From the IMG/VR virus record IMGVR_UViG_3300042934_000479, positions 1 to 21,024 of that record: 21,024 bases of DNA; one strand, written 5' to 3'. The stretch is from a virus. The position numbers were made by a program, and so were the translations under genes. Position 1 is the first letter of the stretch. Each line of letters opens with the position of its first letter. The notes beneath the pieces were generated by a model. That model saw only the letters and a program-made list of their open reading frames with translations. It made no database searches and was not told the DNA's origin. This document shows, one piece after another, positions 6,989-19,113 of the stretch.

Positions 6989-7185
6989 TGAGAATCCGGA
7001 TCCTGACCGCCGGCCAGCCCGGGGCCGTCCTATACGACCGGCCCTGGCCCGCGGTGGGCGACGTGGTCGAGGACCTGCCGACCACGGTCGCCGCGCACCT
7101 GGTCGCCTCCGAGGTCGCCGAGGAGATCAGCGAGGCGCCGCCCGCGCGGCGTCCCAAGACCAGGAAGGGGGACGACGATGCCTAA
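6988..7185 (+). CDS. Small protein of unknown function in the neck-tail region
   Basis: A 65-residue protein. The N-terminal 45 residues look folded (MRIRILTAGQPGAVLYD, a Pro/Trp turn RPWPAVGDVV, helix VAAHLVASEVAEEI). The end is basic then acidic (RRPKTRKGDDDA). Its ATG at 6988 shares a base with the preceding TGA, and its last 8 nt overlap the next gene's start, so it sits in a tightly coupled series. Small proteins with this Val/Gly-rich layout are common between tail terminator and tail tube genes in actinophages. No function is assigned. Confidence 0.7.
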   Translation: MRIRILTAGQPGAVLYDRPWPAVGDVVEDLPTTVAAHLVASEVAEEISEAPPARRPKTRKGDDDA

Positions 7186-7915
7186 GTCCGTCCTGCTCAA
7201 CGTCAGGTGTTTTGCGGTCGGACTGGACCTGACGAGCCGCTCCAACAAGATCGAACTCTCCAGCTCGGTGGAGGAGAAGCCCAGCACGAACTACGGCTCG
7301 GACGGCTGGGGCGAAGTCGTCGGCGGACTGGCCTCGGCGGAGATCGCAGGCGAGGGCCAGTGGGAAGCTGGTGACGAATCCAAGGTCGACGACGCCACCT
7401 GGGCGCAGCTCGGCGGTGTCGGCCCCTGGTCCATCAGCGCCAACAACAGCGCCGCCGTCGGCGCGCTGGCGTACTTCACCCAGGCGATGCGAGCGGACTA
7501 CACGCTGGTCGGCGAGGTCGGCGAGGTCGCCCCGTGGGCGTCCACCGCAAAGTCATCCTGGCCGCTGGTGCGCGGTCAGTTCGCCCACCCGCCCGGTACC
7601 GCACGAACCGCCACCGGCACCGGCACCGCTCTTCAACTCGGCGCCGTCCCGGCTCGCAAGCGGGTCTACGCCACGCTGCACGTCCTGTCCGTGGCGGGCA
7701 CCACGCCGTCCCTGACCGCCCGCGTGGAGTCGGCCGCCGACAGCGCGTTCACCGCCCCGACCACCCGCGCGACCTTCGACGCGGCGACCGAGGCCGGCGG
7801 GCAGGCCGTGCGCACCGACGGCACGGCCATCACTGACACCTGGTGGCGCCTCGCCTGGAACATCACCGGCGACGGCCCATCGTTCCTGTTCGCCGCTGCC
7901 CTCGGCATCGGCTGA
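7178..7915 (+). CDS. Tail-tube-like protein with extra C-terminal domain
   Basis: A 245-residue protein. Residues 1 to about 120 match the whole of the shorter protein at 7986-8396: both begin MP..VLL, share a VEEK...TNY...GW.EVVGGL block, and keep similar spacing through the rest of the fold. This points to a tail tube fold. Residues about 125-245 are an added beta-rich domain (RGQFAHPPGTARTATGTG, LHVLSVAGTTPSLTARVES, WWRLAWNITGDGPSFLFA) of a type often attached to actinophage tail proteins, perhaps exposed on the tail surface. The start at ATG 7178 overlaps the previous gene by 8 nt. Which of the two copies is the main tube subunit is not clear from sequence. Confidence 0.75.
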   Translation: MPKSVLLNVRCFAVGLDLTSRSNKIELSSSVEEKPSTNYGSDGWGEVVGGLASAEIAGEGQWEAGDESKVDDATWAQLGGVGPWSISANNSAAVGALAYFTQAMRADYTLVGEVGEVAPWASTAKSSWPLVRGQFAHPPGTARTATGTGTALQLGAVPARKRVYATLHVLSVAGTTPSLTARVESAADSAFTAPTTRATFDAATEAGGQAVRTDGTAITDTWWRLAWNITGDGPSFLFAAALGIG

Positions 7916-7985: not shown

Positions 7986-8396
7986 GTGCCAACGATGGTT
8001 CTGCTTGCCGAGTACCTGTCCATCAACAGCAACGACCTCTCCGGGCACACCCGCAAGGCGGAGATCGCCGTCGAGGTCGAGGAGAAGGACGTCACGAACT
8101 ACAAGAGCCTGGGCTGGAAGGAAGTCGTCGGCGGCCTCAAGTCCGGCACGCTGGCCTGCGAGTTTCTCCAGGACTTCGCCGCCACCAAGCTGGACGCGAT
8201 CATGTGGCCGCTGCTGGGCACGGTCGTCCCGTTCGAGGTGCGCGCCGACCAGGCCGCCGTGGGCACCAGCAACCCCGCCTACAAGGGCAACATCCTGATC
8301 AACGGCTGGTCCCCGGTCACCGGCTCCGTCGGTGACGAGGCCACCGTGGGCCAGGACTTCACCACCTCCGGGGCCGTGACCCGGGCCACCGCCTAG
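7986..8396 (+). CDS. Major tail (tube) protein, short copy
   Basis: A 136-residue protein, the size of a single tail-tube domain such as those forming the stacked hexameric rings of siphovirus tails. GTG 7986 is preferred over ATG 7995 because it has AAAGGGG six bases upstream and because the resulting MPTMVLL lines up with MPKSVLL of the upstream paralogue. Shared residues include VEEK, TNY, GW and EVVGGL. The C-terminal half (NPAYKGNILINGWSPVTGSV) is beta-rich. Tape-measure chaperone and tape measure genes follow within 1.2 kb, the usual place for the tube gene. Confidence 0.78.
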   Translation: MPTMVLLAEYLSINSNDLSGHTRKAEIAVEVEEKDVTNYKSLGWKEVVGGLKSGTLACEFLQDFAATKLDAIMWPLLGTVVPFEVRADQAAVGTSNPAYKGNILINGWSPVTGSVGDEATVGQDFTTSGAVTRATA

Positions 8397-8406
8397 GACG
8401 GCGGCG

Positions 8407-8913
8407 ATGGCGGACACGTCCGGGCTGGGGCTGGAGCTGACCTCGTCGAACCTGCGCGCGGTCGGCCGGGCGCTGCGGGCCGAGGAGGACGGCAAGGAGC
8501 TGCGCAAGGAACTCACGAAGAACATGCGTGAGGCCCTCAAGCCGGGGGCCGCACGCGCCAAGTCGTCGATCATGTCGATGGCGTCCACGACACCGCACGC
8601 GGGGCCGGCTCTGAAGACGTCGATCGCTCGCAAGATCCGGCCCGAGGTCCGCATCACCGGCAAGTTCCCCGGCGCGAAGATCAAGGCCTTCAAGACGAAG
8701 AACCTGCGGAACTTCCCCAACGCCCCGAAGCGCACCAACCGTGCGTCCGGCTGGCGGCACCCGGTCTACGGCAACCGCGAGGTGTGGGTGCAGCAGACCG
8801 GAAAGATCGAGTGGTTCGACCGGGCCTTCGAGGGCCAGGACGCCCACTACCGCCGACAGGTCCAGTTCGCCCTGGCGGCGATGGTCAACCGCATCGCATC
8901 CCGATCCGACTGA
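8407..8913 (+). CDS. HK97 gp10-like tail/neck protein
   Basis: A 168-residue basic protein. The N-terminal helical part contains ELRKELTKNMREALKPGAAR. A glycine/lysine-rich middle follows, then the recognisable GWRHPVYGNREVWVQQ block (about residues 115-130) and a C-terminal helix. This block marks the HK97 gp10-like family, thought to act in tail completion or head-tail joining. Here it sits after the tube genes rather than before them, an arrangement I also associate with some actinophages. The ribosome binding site is only GGACGG. Confidence 0.75.
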   Translation: MADTSGLGLELTSSNLRAVGRALRAEEDGKELRKELTKNMREALKPGAARAKSSIMSMASTTPHAGPALKTSIARKIRPEVRITGKFPGAKIKAFKTKNLRNFPNAPKRTNRASGWRHPVYGNREVWVQQTGKIEWFDRAFEGQDAHYRRQVQFALAAMVNRIASRSD

Positions 8914-8931: not shown

Positions 8932-9321
8932 GTGAAGGTCACGTACAGCCCCGAAGACGGCGACGAGCAGACGTTCGACTACAACCCGAACCGGCTGCTG
9001 TCGGCCGAGCGGGAGGCCCTGGAGAAGCGCACCGGCCGGGCCTTCAACCAGTTCGCCCAGGGTGTGCTCAAGGGGGACTCGCTGTGCCGGCGTGCGCTGC
9101 TGCACGTCCTGCTCAAACGGCAGCACCCCACGATCGCGTTCGACGACGTCGACTTCTGCTGGGACGAACTCAAGGTCGAGATGACCAAGGGCGAGATCAC
9201 CCTCGCGGTGGAGCGGCTGCGGGAGAAGAACGGTGACGAGGACCTGGCCGAGGCCATGCTGAAGGGCTACGACGAGGCCCCGGACGACGAGGGAAAAGCC
9301 CGGCTGCCGTTCGCCGTCTGA
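8932..9321 (+). CDS. Tail assembly chaperone, short (zero-frame) product
   Basis: A 129-residue protein starting at GTG 8932 behind GAAAGGCGG. It holds an N-terminal strand region (VTYSPEDGDEQTFDYN), then helices (ALEKRTGRAFNQFAQGVL, RRALLHVLLKRQHP, GEITLAVERLREKN). It occupies the place of lambda gpG, the chaperone that coats the tape measure during tail assembly. Near its end is a canonical slippery heptamer (9291-9297) which would let a fraction of ribosomes shift to -1 and make a longer protein, listed separately. Confidence 0.82.
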   Translation: MKVTYSPEDGDEQTFDYNPNRLLSAEREALEKRTGRAFNQFAQGVLKGDSLCRRALLHVLLKRQHPTIAFDDVDFCWDELKVEMTKGEITLAVERLREKNGDEDLAEAMLKGYDEAPDDEGKARLPFAV

Positions 9322-9464
9322 AGCACCTGGGCAACGCGGCCCACCTGCTGCACATCACTCCCCGCGACTGGGACCTGCTCACGGTCGAAGAGGCCGATCA
9401 CCTCCTGGCCTGGCTGGACGAGTACCTCGCACAGATGGAGAAGGCCGCCAAGAAGCGGCGATGA
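8932..9464 (+). CDS. Tail assembly chaperone, -1 frameshift fusion (gpG-T analogue)
   Basis: The predicted product joins 8932-9297 to 9297-9464 by a -1 shift at G GGA AAA and is about 177 residues. The added 55 residues begin SPAAVRRLKHLG, contain HITPRDWDLLTVEEADHL, and end in a basic tail (KAAKKRR). The -1 frame is open from the slip site to TGA 9462-9464 and lacks a useful start of its own, so it has no other way of being expressed; it ends 24 nt before the tape measure start. This is the layout of the lambda G/GT pair, where the fusion recruits the tube protein to the tape measure. Frameshifting efficiency cannot be judged from sequence. Confidence 0.8.
9291..9297 (+). promoter_or_regulatory. 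-1 ribosomal slippery site GGGAAAA
   Basis: In the chaperone frame the bases read GAG GGA AAA GCC, so the heptamer is G GGA AAA, an X XXY YYZ slippery sequence. Both tRNAs can re-pair in the -1 frame as GGG AAA. The zero-frame stop is 21 nt downstream. No convincing pseudoknot was seen by eye just after it. Confidence 0.82.
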
Positions 9465-9488
9465 CGCCCGTACTGAAGGGGGTTCGCC

Positions 9489-16908: not shown

Positions 16909-17130
16909 ATGGCTGCACCCGTAGAGAAGAAGGTCACCGCCGCCACCGCCGGCACGTACGTCGGGAGCACCGCGCTGCTCGCCGGCCTGGAGGCGGTCGA
17001 GGACCATGCCGAGCTGGTGAGCTGGATGCCGCCCGGGCTGGCCCCGTTCGTCCTCGCCCTGGTCCCGGCCGCGATCACCTTCGTGTCCGGCTGGGCCACG
17101 AAGCACAGCCCGCGCGGGGTGATCGAGTGA
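16909..17130 (+). CDS. Holin
   Basis: A 73-residue membrane protein 5 nt after the endolysin stop. It has a charged N-terminus (APVEKK), a first weakly hydrophobic helix (AGTYVGSTALLAGLEAV), a short polar turn (EDHAELVSWMPPG), a second membrane segment (LAPFVLALVPAAITFVSGW) and a basic end. Two membrane segments, small size and position after the amidase are the normal signs of a holin, which forms lesions in the cytoplasmic membrane at lysis. The SD is weak, so translation may be coupled to the endolysin. Its stop overlaps the next start (GTGA). Confidence 0.8.
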   Translation: MAAPVEKKVTAATAGTYVGSTALLAGLEAVEDHAELVSWMPPGLAPFVLALVPAAITFVSGWATKHSPRGVIE

Positions 17131-17456
17131 GCGACAGCACCGGCGTTCCAGCCGTCGACACCATCGTCGTCTGGTGCGTAGCAGGTACCGCCCTGGCCGG
17201 GATCCTGGTCCTGCTCTGGCGTCTGGTCCGCGGCGTCCGCCAGGTCGTCGTCCGCGTGGACGACTTCGTGGACGACTGGCAAGGCGTGCCGTCGCGCCCC
17301 GGGGTCCCCGAGCGCCCGGGGGTCATGGCCCGCCTGGACGCCATCGAGGGACGCCTCAGCAACGTGGAGCACGAGCTGCACCCCAACAGCGGCTCCTCGC
17401 TCCGGGACGCCGTGGACCGCGTCGACCGGCGCACCCGACAACTCACCGACGAATGA
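17127..17456 (+). CDS. Single-span membrane protein of the lysis cassette (DUF2746-like)
   Basis: A 109-residue protein starting at GTG 17127, which overlaps the holin stop by 4 nt. One membrane segment (TIVVWCVAGTALAGILVLLW, about 12-31) is followed by a basic stretch, a Pro-rich linker, and a predicted coiled coil (MARLDAIEGRLSNVEHEL) ending in HPNSGSSLRDAVDRVDRR. The NSGSSLRDAVDR ending is what I associate with the actinophage DUF2746 family. Topology (membrane anchor plus helical coil) would suit a holin partner, antiholin or spanin-like factor, but the role is not established. Confidence 0.72.
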   Translation: MSDSTGVPAVDTIVVWCVAGTALAGILVLLWRLVRGVRQVVVRVDDFVDDWQGVPSRPGVPERPGVMARLDAIEGRLSNVEHELHPNSGSSLRDAVDRVDRRTRQLTDE

Positions 17457-17509: not shown

Positions 17510-18367
17510 TCAGCGTGCGGTCAGGGCCCGGCGCGCACGGTTGATGACGTTCTGCGCGTCGGTTCCGTACACGGCCGACTCGCTAAGGGTGTCCCACACT
17601 CGCTGGTACGTGGCCACGGAATCCGTGTCGTCCAGCCACAACTCGGCGTGCCAGTCCTCTACGACCACGCGCCGGTCATCGTAGATCCAGAACGAGTTGC
17701 CCGCGTAGATCTTCAGGGACGCCGAGAACGGCACGATGCCGAACTCCACGGTGTCCAGGCCGATGACGCTGGCGAGGCGGTCCAGCTGGGCGGCGAGCAC
17801 GGCGGGCGGGCAGACGAGGGCGAAACAGGCTGCCTCCCACATCAGGATCCGGTAGGTGCGGCCCGGCTCCCACAGCCCGTCCTGTCGGCGGATGCGGGCG
17901 CGTACGGCCTCCTCGGTGTCTCGTGGGGACTGCATGAGGTTGGCGTGCCGGGTGAGGACGTGGCGGGCGTACTCCGGGGTTTGGAGCATGCCGGGGACGA
18001 GGTTGTTCTCCCAGATGGTGAGCACGCGTGTGCGGTCGTGCTCTGCGGTGATGGCCTCCTGTACGGGGCGGTGCCCAGAGGCGAGCTGCCGCCGCCAGGA
18101 CCGAATGCGTGACTCGAAGCCCCGGAGCTGGGCGAGAAGTCCCTCGTACGCTTCGGGACGGCCGGTGGCGTCGGCCCATGCCCGGAGTTCGTCGGCGTCG
18201 GCTGTCTGCCGGCCGTTCTCCAGCTTGGAGACCTTGGACTTGGTCCAGCCGTTGCCGAGACGCTCGGCGAGCTGGGCGCCGGTGAGCCGACCGGTTGGGC
18301 ACGCTAGCCGGAGTTCCCGGAGCCGTATCCCGAGGGCTTCGCGTGCCTGCTGGTAGTCAGTGCTCAC
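17510..18367 (-). CDS. XRE-DUF5753 transcriptional regulator
   Basis: A 285-residue regulator, GTG start at 18367. An N-terminal Cro/C1-type HTH (about residues 12-70; LTGAQLAERLG, WTKSKVSKLENGRQT) is followed by the C-terminal DUF5753 domain with its usual motifs: IWENNLVPGMLQTPEYAR, RIRRQDGLW, ILMWEAACF, IVPFSASLKIYAGNSFWIYD. These regulators are abundant in Streptomyces and usually work with a small DUF397 or DUF6879-type neighbour; some pairs affect antibiotic production and differentiation. Here the partner lies just upstream (11 nt gap), so the two are one operon on the minus strand. A role in prophage control or host adaptation is inference. Confidence 0.92.
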   Translation of the reverse strand: MSTDYQQAREALGIRLRELRLACPTGRLTGAQLAERLGNGWTKSKVSKLENGRQTADADELRAWADATGRPEAYEGLLAQLRGFESRIRSWRRQLASGHRPVQEAITAEHDRTRVLTIWENNLVPGMLQTPEYARHVLTRHANLMQSPRDTEEAVRARIRRQDGLWEPGRTYRILMWEAACFALVCPPAVLAAQLDRLASVIGLDTVEFGIVPFSASLKIYAGNSFWIYDDRRVVVEDWHAELWLDDTDSVATYQRVWDTLSESAVYGTDAQNVINRARRALTAR

Positions 18368-18378
18368 CGGGCCTCACG

Positions 18379-19113
18379 TCAGCGCTTGATCTCGAACTGT
18401 GCGTACGGGACTGCATGGTGCCAGGCCGCGTCGCGGGCTTGGCAGTACCGGTTCACCGCGGCCGGTTCCGTGATCAGCTCGGCGCCGGTCAGATGGTCGT
18501 CGTCGTCGAAGAGGAGTCGGGCGACTAGGCGGGAGTCGAACAGCCAGAAGTCCTCGGTGGGCAAGTGGAGGTCGTCGGCCTGGGCGCGGGAGAGGTTACG
18601 GATGTCCTCGCCCACGGCGCAGTTCCGGGCCGCATTGCTGCGGAGGTACAGCTGCCCCGGGGTGATGGGGTCGTCGACCAGGCGCACGCGCTCGAAGCGT
18701 TTCCCCTGCGCGGTCTGGGCGCGGACGTTGTGGCACCAGTCGTCGTCGTAGTCCCAGTCGATGGGCTGGCCGGCCTCGAACTGGGCCCACTCCGGGGTGG
18801 CCTCGTCGCTGGCGAAACGGCGGCGCGTCTCCAGCCGCCAGGCCGTGTGCTCGAAGGTGCTGAAGAGCCGGTCGAACTCGTCGCTCGCGTTGATGAGCCT
18901 GGGCTCCTCGTCTCGCGGGCCGAAGTCGACGAGGGTGTTGCGGGGGACGATGACGGCGACTTCGCCTTCGTCCAGGTGCCGGAGCTGGGCGAGGTCGTCG
19001 GGGGCTGTGAGCGGCGGCCCGTGGACGATGACCTCGCCGCTGTCGAGGTCCTCGTGTACGGCCGGGCAACCGCCGCCGCCTGATCCGGTGCCGTTGAAGC
19101 GGAGTCGGCGCAT
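18379..19113 (-). CDS. DUF6879 protein with N-terminal partner-like domain
   Basis: A 244-residue protein, ATG at 19113 with a GGGAGGGG site upstream on the minus strand. The first 65-70 residues (RRLRFNGTGSGGGGCPAVHE, VIVHGPPLTAPDDLAQL, EVAVIVPRNTLVDFG) look like the stand-alone small proteins that often sit beside DUF6879 genes in Streptomyces. The rest is DUF6879: FDRLFSTFEHTAWRLETRRR, RVRLVDDPITPGQLYL, AVGEDIRNLSRAQADDLHLP, EDFWLFDSRLVARLLFDDD, VNRYCQARDAAWHHAVPYAQF. So two usually separate components appear to be fused here. Biochemical activity is unknown; it is presumed to work with the downstream XRE-DUF5753 regulator. Confidence 0.88.
   Translation of the reverse strand: MRRLRFNGTGSGGGGCPAVHEDLDSGEVIVHGPPLTAPDDLAQLRHLDEGEVAVIVPRNTLVDFGPRDEEPRLINASDEFDRLFSTFEHTAWRLETRRRFASDEATPEWAQFEAGQPIDWDYDDDWCHNVRAQTAQGKRFERVRLVDDPITPGQLYLRSNAARNCAVGEDIRNLSRAQADDLHLPTEDFWLFDSRLVARLLFDDDDHLTGAELITEPAAVNRYCQARDAAWHHAVPYAQFEIKR

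Follow-up and report, generated by a model that had tools for sequence, protein, structure and literature searches.

Known tail-chaperone frameshifts

The lambda type of tail-chaperone frameshift has been known for three decades, and the chaperones of the G/GT type that it yields are absent from the finished virion. In lambda, a -1 slip produces gpG and gpGT in a molar ratio of about 30:1, with G binding the tape measure protein and T binding the tail tube protein, and the mechanism is widely conserved among long-tailed phages (PMC5009743). According to the PRFect paper, SEA-PHAGES genomes contain 2,397 tail assembly chaperone genes in joined form, others having been left unjoined (PMC10274946), and a tail-chaperone frameshift arrangement has been annotated in Streptomyces phage Salutena (PMC8407740).

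The locus considered here lies in a 21,024-nucleotide stretch of viral DNA (IMG/VR record IMGVR_UViG_3300042934_000479, positions 1 to 21,024; hereafter the window), which carries the head and tail module of a tailed phage, including terminase, portal, capsid, head-tail adaptor and tail genes. Its gene at 8932-9464 resembles lambda G/GT in spanning two frames immediately ahead of the tape measure gene, in having a short and a predicted extended form, and in a putative -1 slip late in the first frame (PMC5009743). Lambda G/GT and this gene nevertheless share no detectable sequence relation. The lambda slip site is G GGA AAG, as against G GGA AAA in the window.

Two other Streptomyces phages offer parallels in part. 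Genes 15 and 16 of AxeJC also contain GGGAAAA and form a joined CDS just before the tape measure gene, whose product is 35% identical to the tape measure protein of the window. However, the AxeJC heptamer is separated from the zero-frame stop by 138 nt, and the chaperone sequences have no detectable relation. In phiC31, gp41 and gp42 are likewise encoded by a joined CDS, annotated with 'ribosomal slippage', directly before the tape measure gene. Unlike the window's gene, the phiC31 chaperone is shorter, its sequence similarity is too low for tblastn, and gene 41 has no in-phase XXXYYYZ heptamer. The candidate site near the end of gene 41 (gp41/gp42 at L073:1407-1879) is AAG GGG AAG.

Anatomy of the locus

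Along the window, the chaperone gene follows the genes for a tail tube protein and a phrog_11991 protein and precedes the tape measure gene (Table 1). Its codons GAG (9289), GGA (9292), AAA (9295) and GCC (9298) place the heptamer in the phase G_GGA_AAA, with 21 nt (9298-9318) between it and the zero-frame stop. The -1 frame translates from 9297 as SPAAVRRLKHLGNAAHLLHITPRDWDLLTVEEADHLLAWLDEYLAQMEKAAKKRR, followed by TGA at 9462-9464. Joining residues 1-122 of the zero-frame protein to the 55 codons of the extension gives a fusion of 177 amino acids. With 9489 as the first base of the tape measure ORF, 167 nt (9322-9488) are left between the two annotated ORFs, and the extension occupies most of this gap. 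A sequence-only reading of the window had proposed this heptamer, spacing, -1 frame and gap, and every coordinate proved correct to the base.

Table 1. Features of the probable frameshift locus and adjoining tail genes, in window coordinates
Feature	Position	Strand	Details
Tail tube / major tail protein	7986-8396	+	phrog_4574, E 3.5e-35
Conserved 168-aa protein upstream of the chaperone, phrog_11991 (function unknown)	8407-8913	+	E 1.7e-47
Putative zero-frame tail assembly chaperone (G-like), 129 aa	8932-9321	+	GTG start at 8932, TGA at 9319-9321
Slippery heptamer G GGA AAA, correct phase	9291-9297	+	Identical across the 32-sequence set
-1 frame extension (T-like), 55 aa + TGA	9297-9464	+	Conservation, substitution pattern, no stops, helical model
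Dual-frame coding stretch, heptamer to zero-frame stop	9298-9321	+	ARLPFAV-stop / SPAAVRRL; length unchanged at 21 nt + stop across 32 relatives
Tape measure protein, 758 aa	9489-11765	+	phrog_1272, E 1.5e-40; PF10145, E 3e-15

The heptamer is not a product of chance, as two rare codons are required to form it. Across ten structural ORFs from the window, lysine is encoded by AAA in 3 of 102 codons and glycine by GGA in 18 of 284. With this codon usage, the probability of GAG-GGA-AAA for Glu-Gly-Lys is approximately 0.0017. The site at 9291-9297 is the sole in-phase heptamer of the form X XXA AAN or X XXT TTN in these ten ORFs, and GGGAAAA is unique in the 21-kb window on either strand.

Other features of the window are of separate interest. 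Two tail tube homologues (7178-7915 and 7986-8396) adjoin one another and share 42% identity over 95 aa (BLASTP E 3e-16); the first is extended at its C-terminus by about 110 aa. The pair represents a duplicated tail tube gene with one copy decorated. Further along, on the minus strand, an HTH_31-DUF5753 regulator lies beside a DUF6879 protein (17510-19113), directly preceded by a holin-like gene (17127-17456). Pairs of this regulator and DUF6879 are common in Streptomyces chromosomes.

Protein family and fold

Residues 2-129 of the zero-frame protein align with positions 2-128 of the 128-position profile phrog_17335, 'tail protein' (E 4e-47), which is also matched by 25 of the 26 aligned relatives. 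Together with its position among tail genes, this match fits a tail assembly chaperone. AlphaFold2 confidently models the chaperone as a small fold (pLDDT 86) and the extension as helical (pLDDT 92). In Foldseek searches of BFVD, the chaperone model showed weak similarity to phiC31 gp42 (E 0.27, probability 0.97, TM 0.37).

Other searches returned little. No credible match, and no chaperone model, came from scanning the chaperone family against Pfam and NCBIfam, and the extension matched no PHROG or Pfam profile. Neither the chaperone nor the extension had a match among INPHARED phages in DNA and protein searches, including tblastn. Sequence and fold searches of the PDB gave no significant match, only short, unrelated ones with VIA Z under 4.

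Conservation among relatives

Relatives were sought by scans of IMG/VR and bacterial genomes and by a profile search of 393 Streptomyces genomes. The close relatives, found in viral contigs and two Streptomyces genomes, are 72-97% identical. The profile search matched 25 of the 393 genomes at 26 places, all with an in-phase slippery site: 16 resemble the window and 10 belong to a remoter clade. A set of 32 sequences was assembled from the window, 16 close relatives and 15 prophages with approximately 45-50% identity.

Throughout this set, GGGAAAA and the G that follows are invariant, down to about 45% protein identity, and the distance from heptamer to zero-frame stop is 21 nt in every sequence. 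The extension keeps the pattern LGxAAHLL...W...T.E..D..L.WLD.Y. The earlier reading had named failure of relatives to conserve the heptamer or the -1 frame as evidence against a frameshift. Such failure was looked for and not found; both are retained in 32 of 32.

The extension evolves as a coding sequence. Beyond the zero-frame stop, the -1 frame contains stops in none of the 32 sequences, the zero frame in 19 and the +1 frame in 6. Among codons with a one-base difference in this region, the synonymous share is 52% for the -1 frame, as against 26% for the zero frame and 12% for the +1 frame. Because sequence pairs share ancestry, these counts are descriptive and do not represent independent events. 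In 200 column shuffles, the synonymous share averaged 27% and reached at most 37%, with none at 52%.

Consequently, the notion that the extension is a decayed remnant, or that a one-base sequencing error split a once continuous gene, was rejected and has practically no remaining probability: abutting frames of this kind would also arise by an indel, which is nothing specific, but the same two-frame arrangement, with a coding substitution pattern, occurs in 32 relatives from viral contigs, bacterial genomes and plasmids.

The remoter clade comprises ten matches in Streptomyces prophages, at about 25% identity. Here the heptamer is C CCA AAA in eight and G GGA AAA in two. Between it and the zero-frame stop are 42-150 nt, and in each case a -1 extension of like character follows. 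Most zero-frame proteins of this clade end in a Ser/Thr-rich tail after the slip site, and this tail shares coding bases with the start of the extension.

Probable route to the extension

The gene at 8932-9321 is very probably a tail assembly chaperone in which a minority -1 slip at 9291-9297 would yield a 177-aa form. The mechanism, an ordinary one, would be that of the lambda G/GT type, a reading proposed from the sequence at the outset and now supported by conservation, gene position and the phrog_17335 match, with the fusion product predicted. The analysis establishes the anatomy, its conservation, the coding character of the extension and the lack of a separate start codon for it; the slip, its efficiency and the roles of the two products are inferred.

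Two other routes to the extension deserve consideration, and both are very improbable. The first is that it constitutes a short gene in its own right, with an independent start, and involves no frameshifting. There is precedent for this, as several Microbacterium cluster EA subclusters have two chaperone ORFs that are apparently expressed separately, without an evident frameshift (PMC7302621). In the window, however, the last upstream stop in the -1 frame is at 9234, and from there to 9434 the frame lacks ATG, GTG and TTG, leaving only CTG codons. The first normal start codon comes at 9435, 9 codons from the end of the frame, and an ordinary separate start of the extension is therefore excluded. 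The invariance of the heptamer also argues against a separate gene, as does the conservation of the extension, which in the aligned relatives starts right at that site.

The second route, to be given equally little credence, is that transcriptional slippage, and not the ribosome, changes the frame. The site does contain a run of four A, but transcriptional slippage requires longer homopolymer runs. Moreover, the two-codon phase X XXY YYZ is kept throughout, and the remoter clade swaps GGG for CCC yet retains the layout for tandem slippage.

Under ribosomal frameshifting, most ribosomes would end at 9319-9321 and produce the 129-aa form. A few would move back one base at G_GGA_AAA (9291-9297) by a tandem slip, in which the P-site tRNA on GGA re-pairs with GGG and the A-site tRNA on AAA re-pairs with AAA. 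These ribosomes would then read AGC CCG GCT and onwards to 9464, giving the 177-aa form with its predicted helical C-terminal extension. If the two products act as in lambda, the short form may coat the tape measure protein and the extension may recruit the tail tube protein. The ratio of the two forms, as set by the slip, would then matter for tail assembly.

Possible stimulators of the slip were also sought. The 103 nt folded downstream of the heptamer showed no excess RNA stability (z = 0.31). Similarly, five folding windows in 30 relatives gave mean z values of -0.2 to -0.9, with no significant downstream structure, and the RNAalifold consensus was weak (-4.0 kcal/mol over 75 columns). Judged by eye, the sequences of the relatives showed no conserved Shine-Dalgarno-like element upstream of the heptamer. 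With neither significant RNA structure nor such an element, no stimulator was identified; because the folding methods are blind to pseudoknots, the missing stimulatory structure is an absence of evidence. One speculative and rather doubtful suggestion is that the heptamer, without a downstream stem-loop or pseudoknot and perhaps aided by slow decoding of the very rare AAA, would suffice to fix the ratio of chaperone forms in high-G+C actinobacteria.

Annotation of the family and implications

The arrangement is also present on plasmids. Both pFP3 and NBC_01335 unnamed2 carry direct homologues of the gene, in which GGGAAAA precedes the stop by 21 nt and the extension is conserved. They differ from the window in annotation, being labelled only 'hypothetical protein' with the extension left out, and their records show an empty 164 or 154 nt between the homologue and the tape measure gene. 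The suspicion that gene callers miss such extensions holds for these two PGAP-annotated relatives, since the heptamer and extension lie in the unannotated plasmid gaps.

Close relatives of the window's tail module are found on two 34-kb Streptomyces plasmids (NC_023067.1 and NZ_CP108372.1). On pFP3, terminase, portal, capsid and tail genes occur with genes for ParA, DnaB, an integrase and FtsK/SpoIIIE. The 34-kb Streptomyces plasmids thus look like phage-plasmids, given this combination of phage and plasmid genes.

What is new is a firm assignment, together with the missing half, for a family labelled only 'tail protein'; the frameshift is unannotated in the records examined. Proteins known as 'tail protein' or 'hypothetical protein' thereby gain a functional assignment and their missing C-terminal half. 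In addition, the family has two types of heptamer, lying 21 to 150 nt ahead of the stop, and offers a natural series for the upkeep and movement of slip sites in high-G+C phages.
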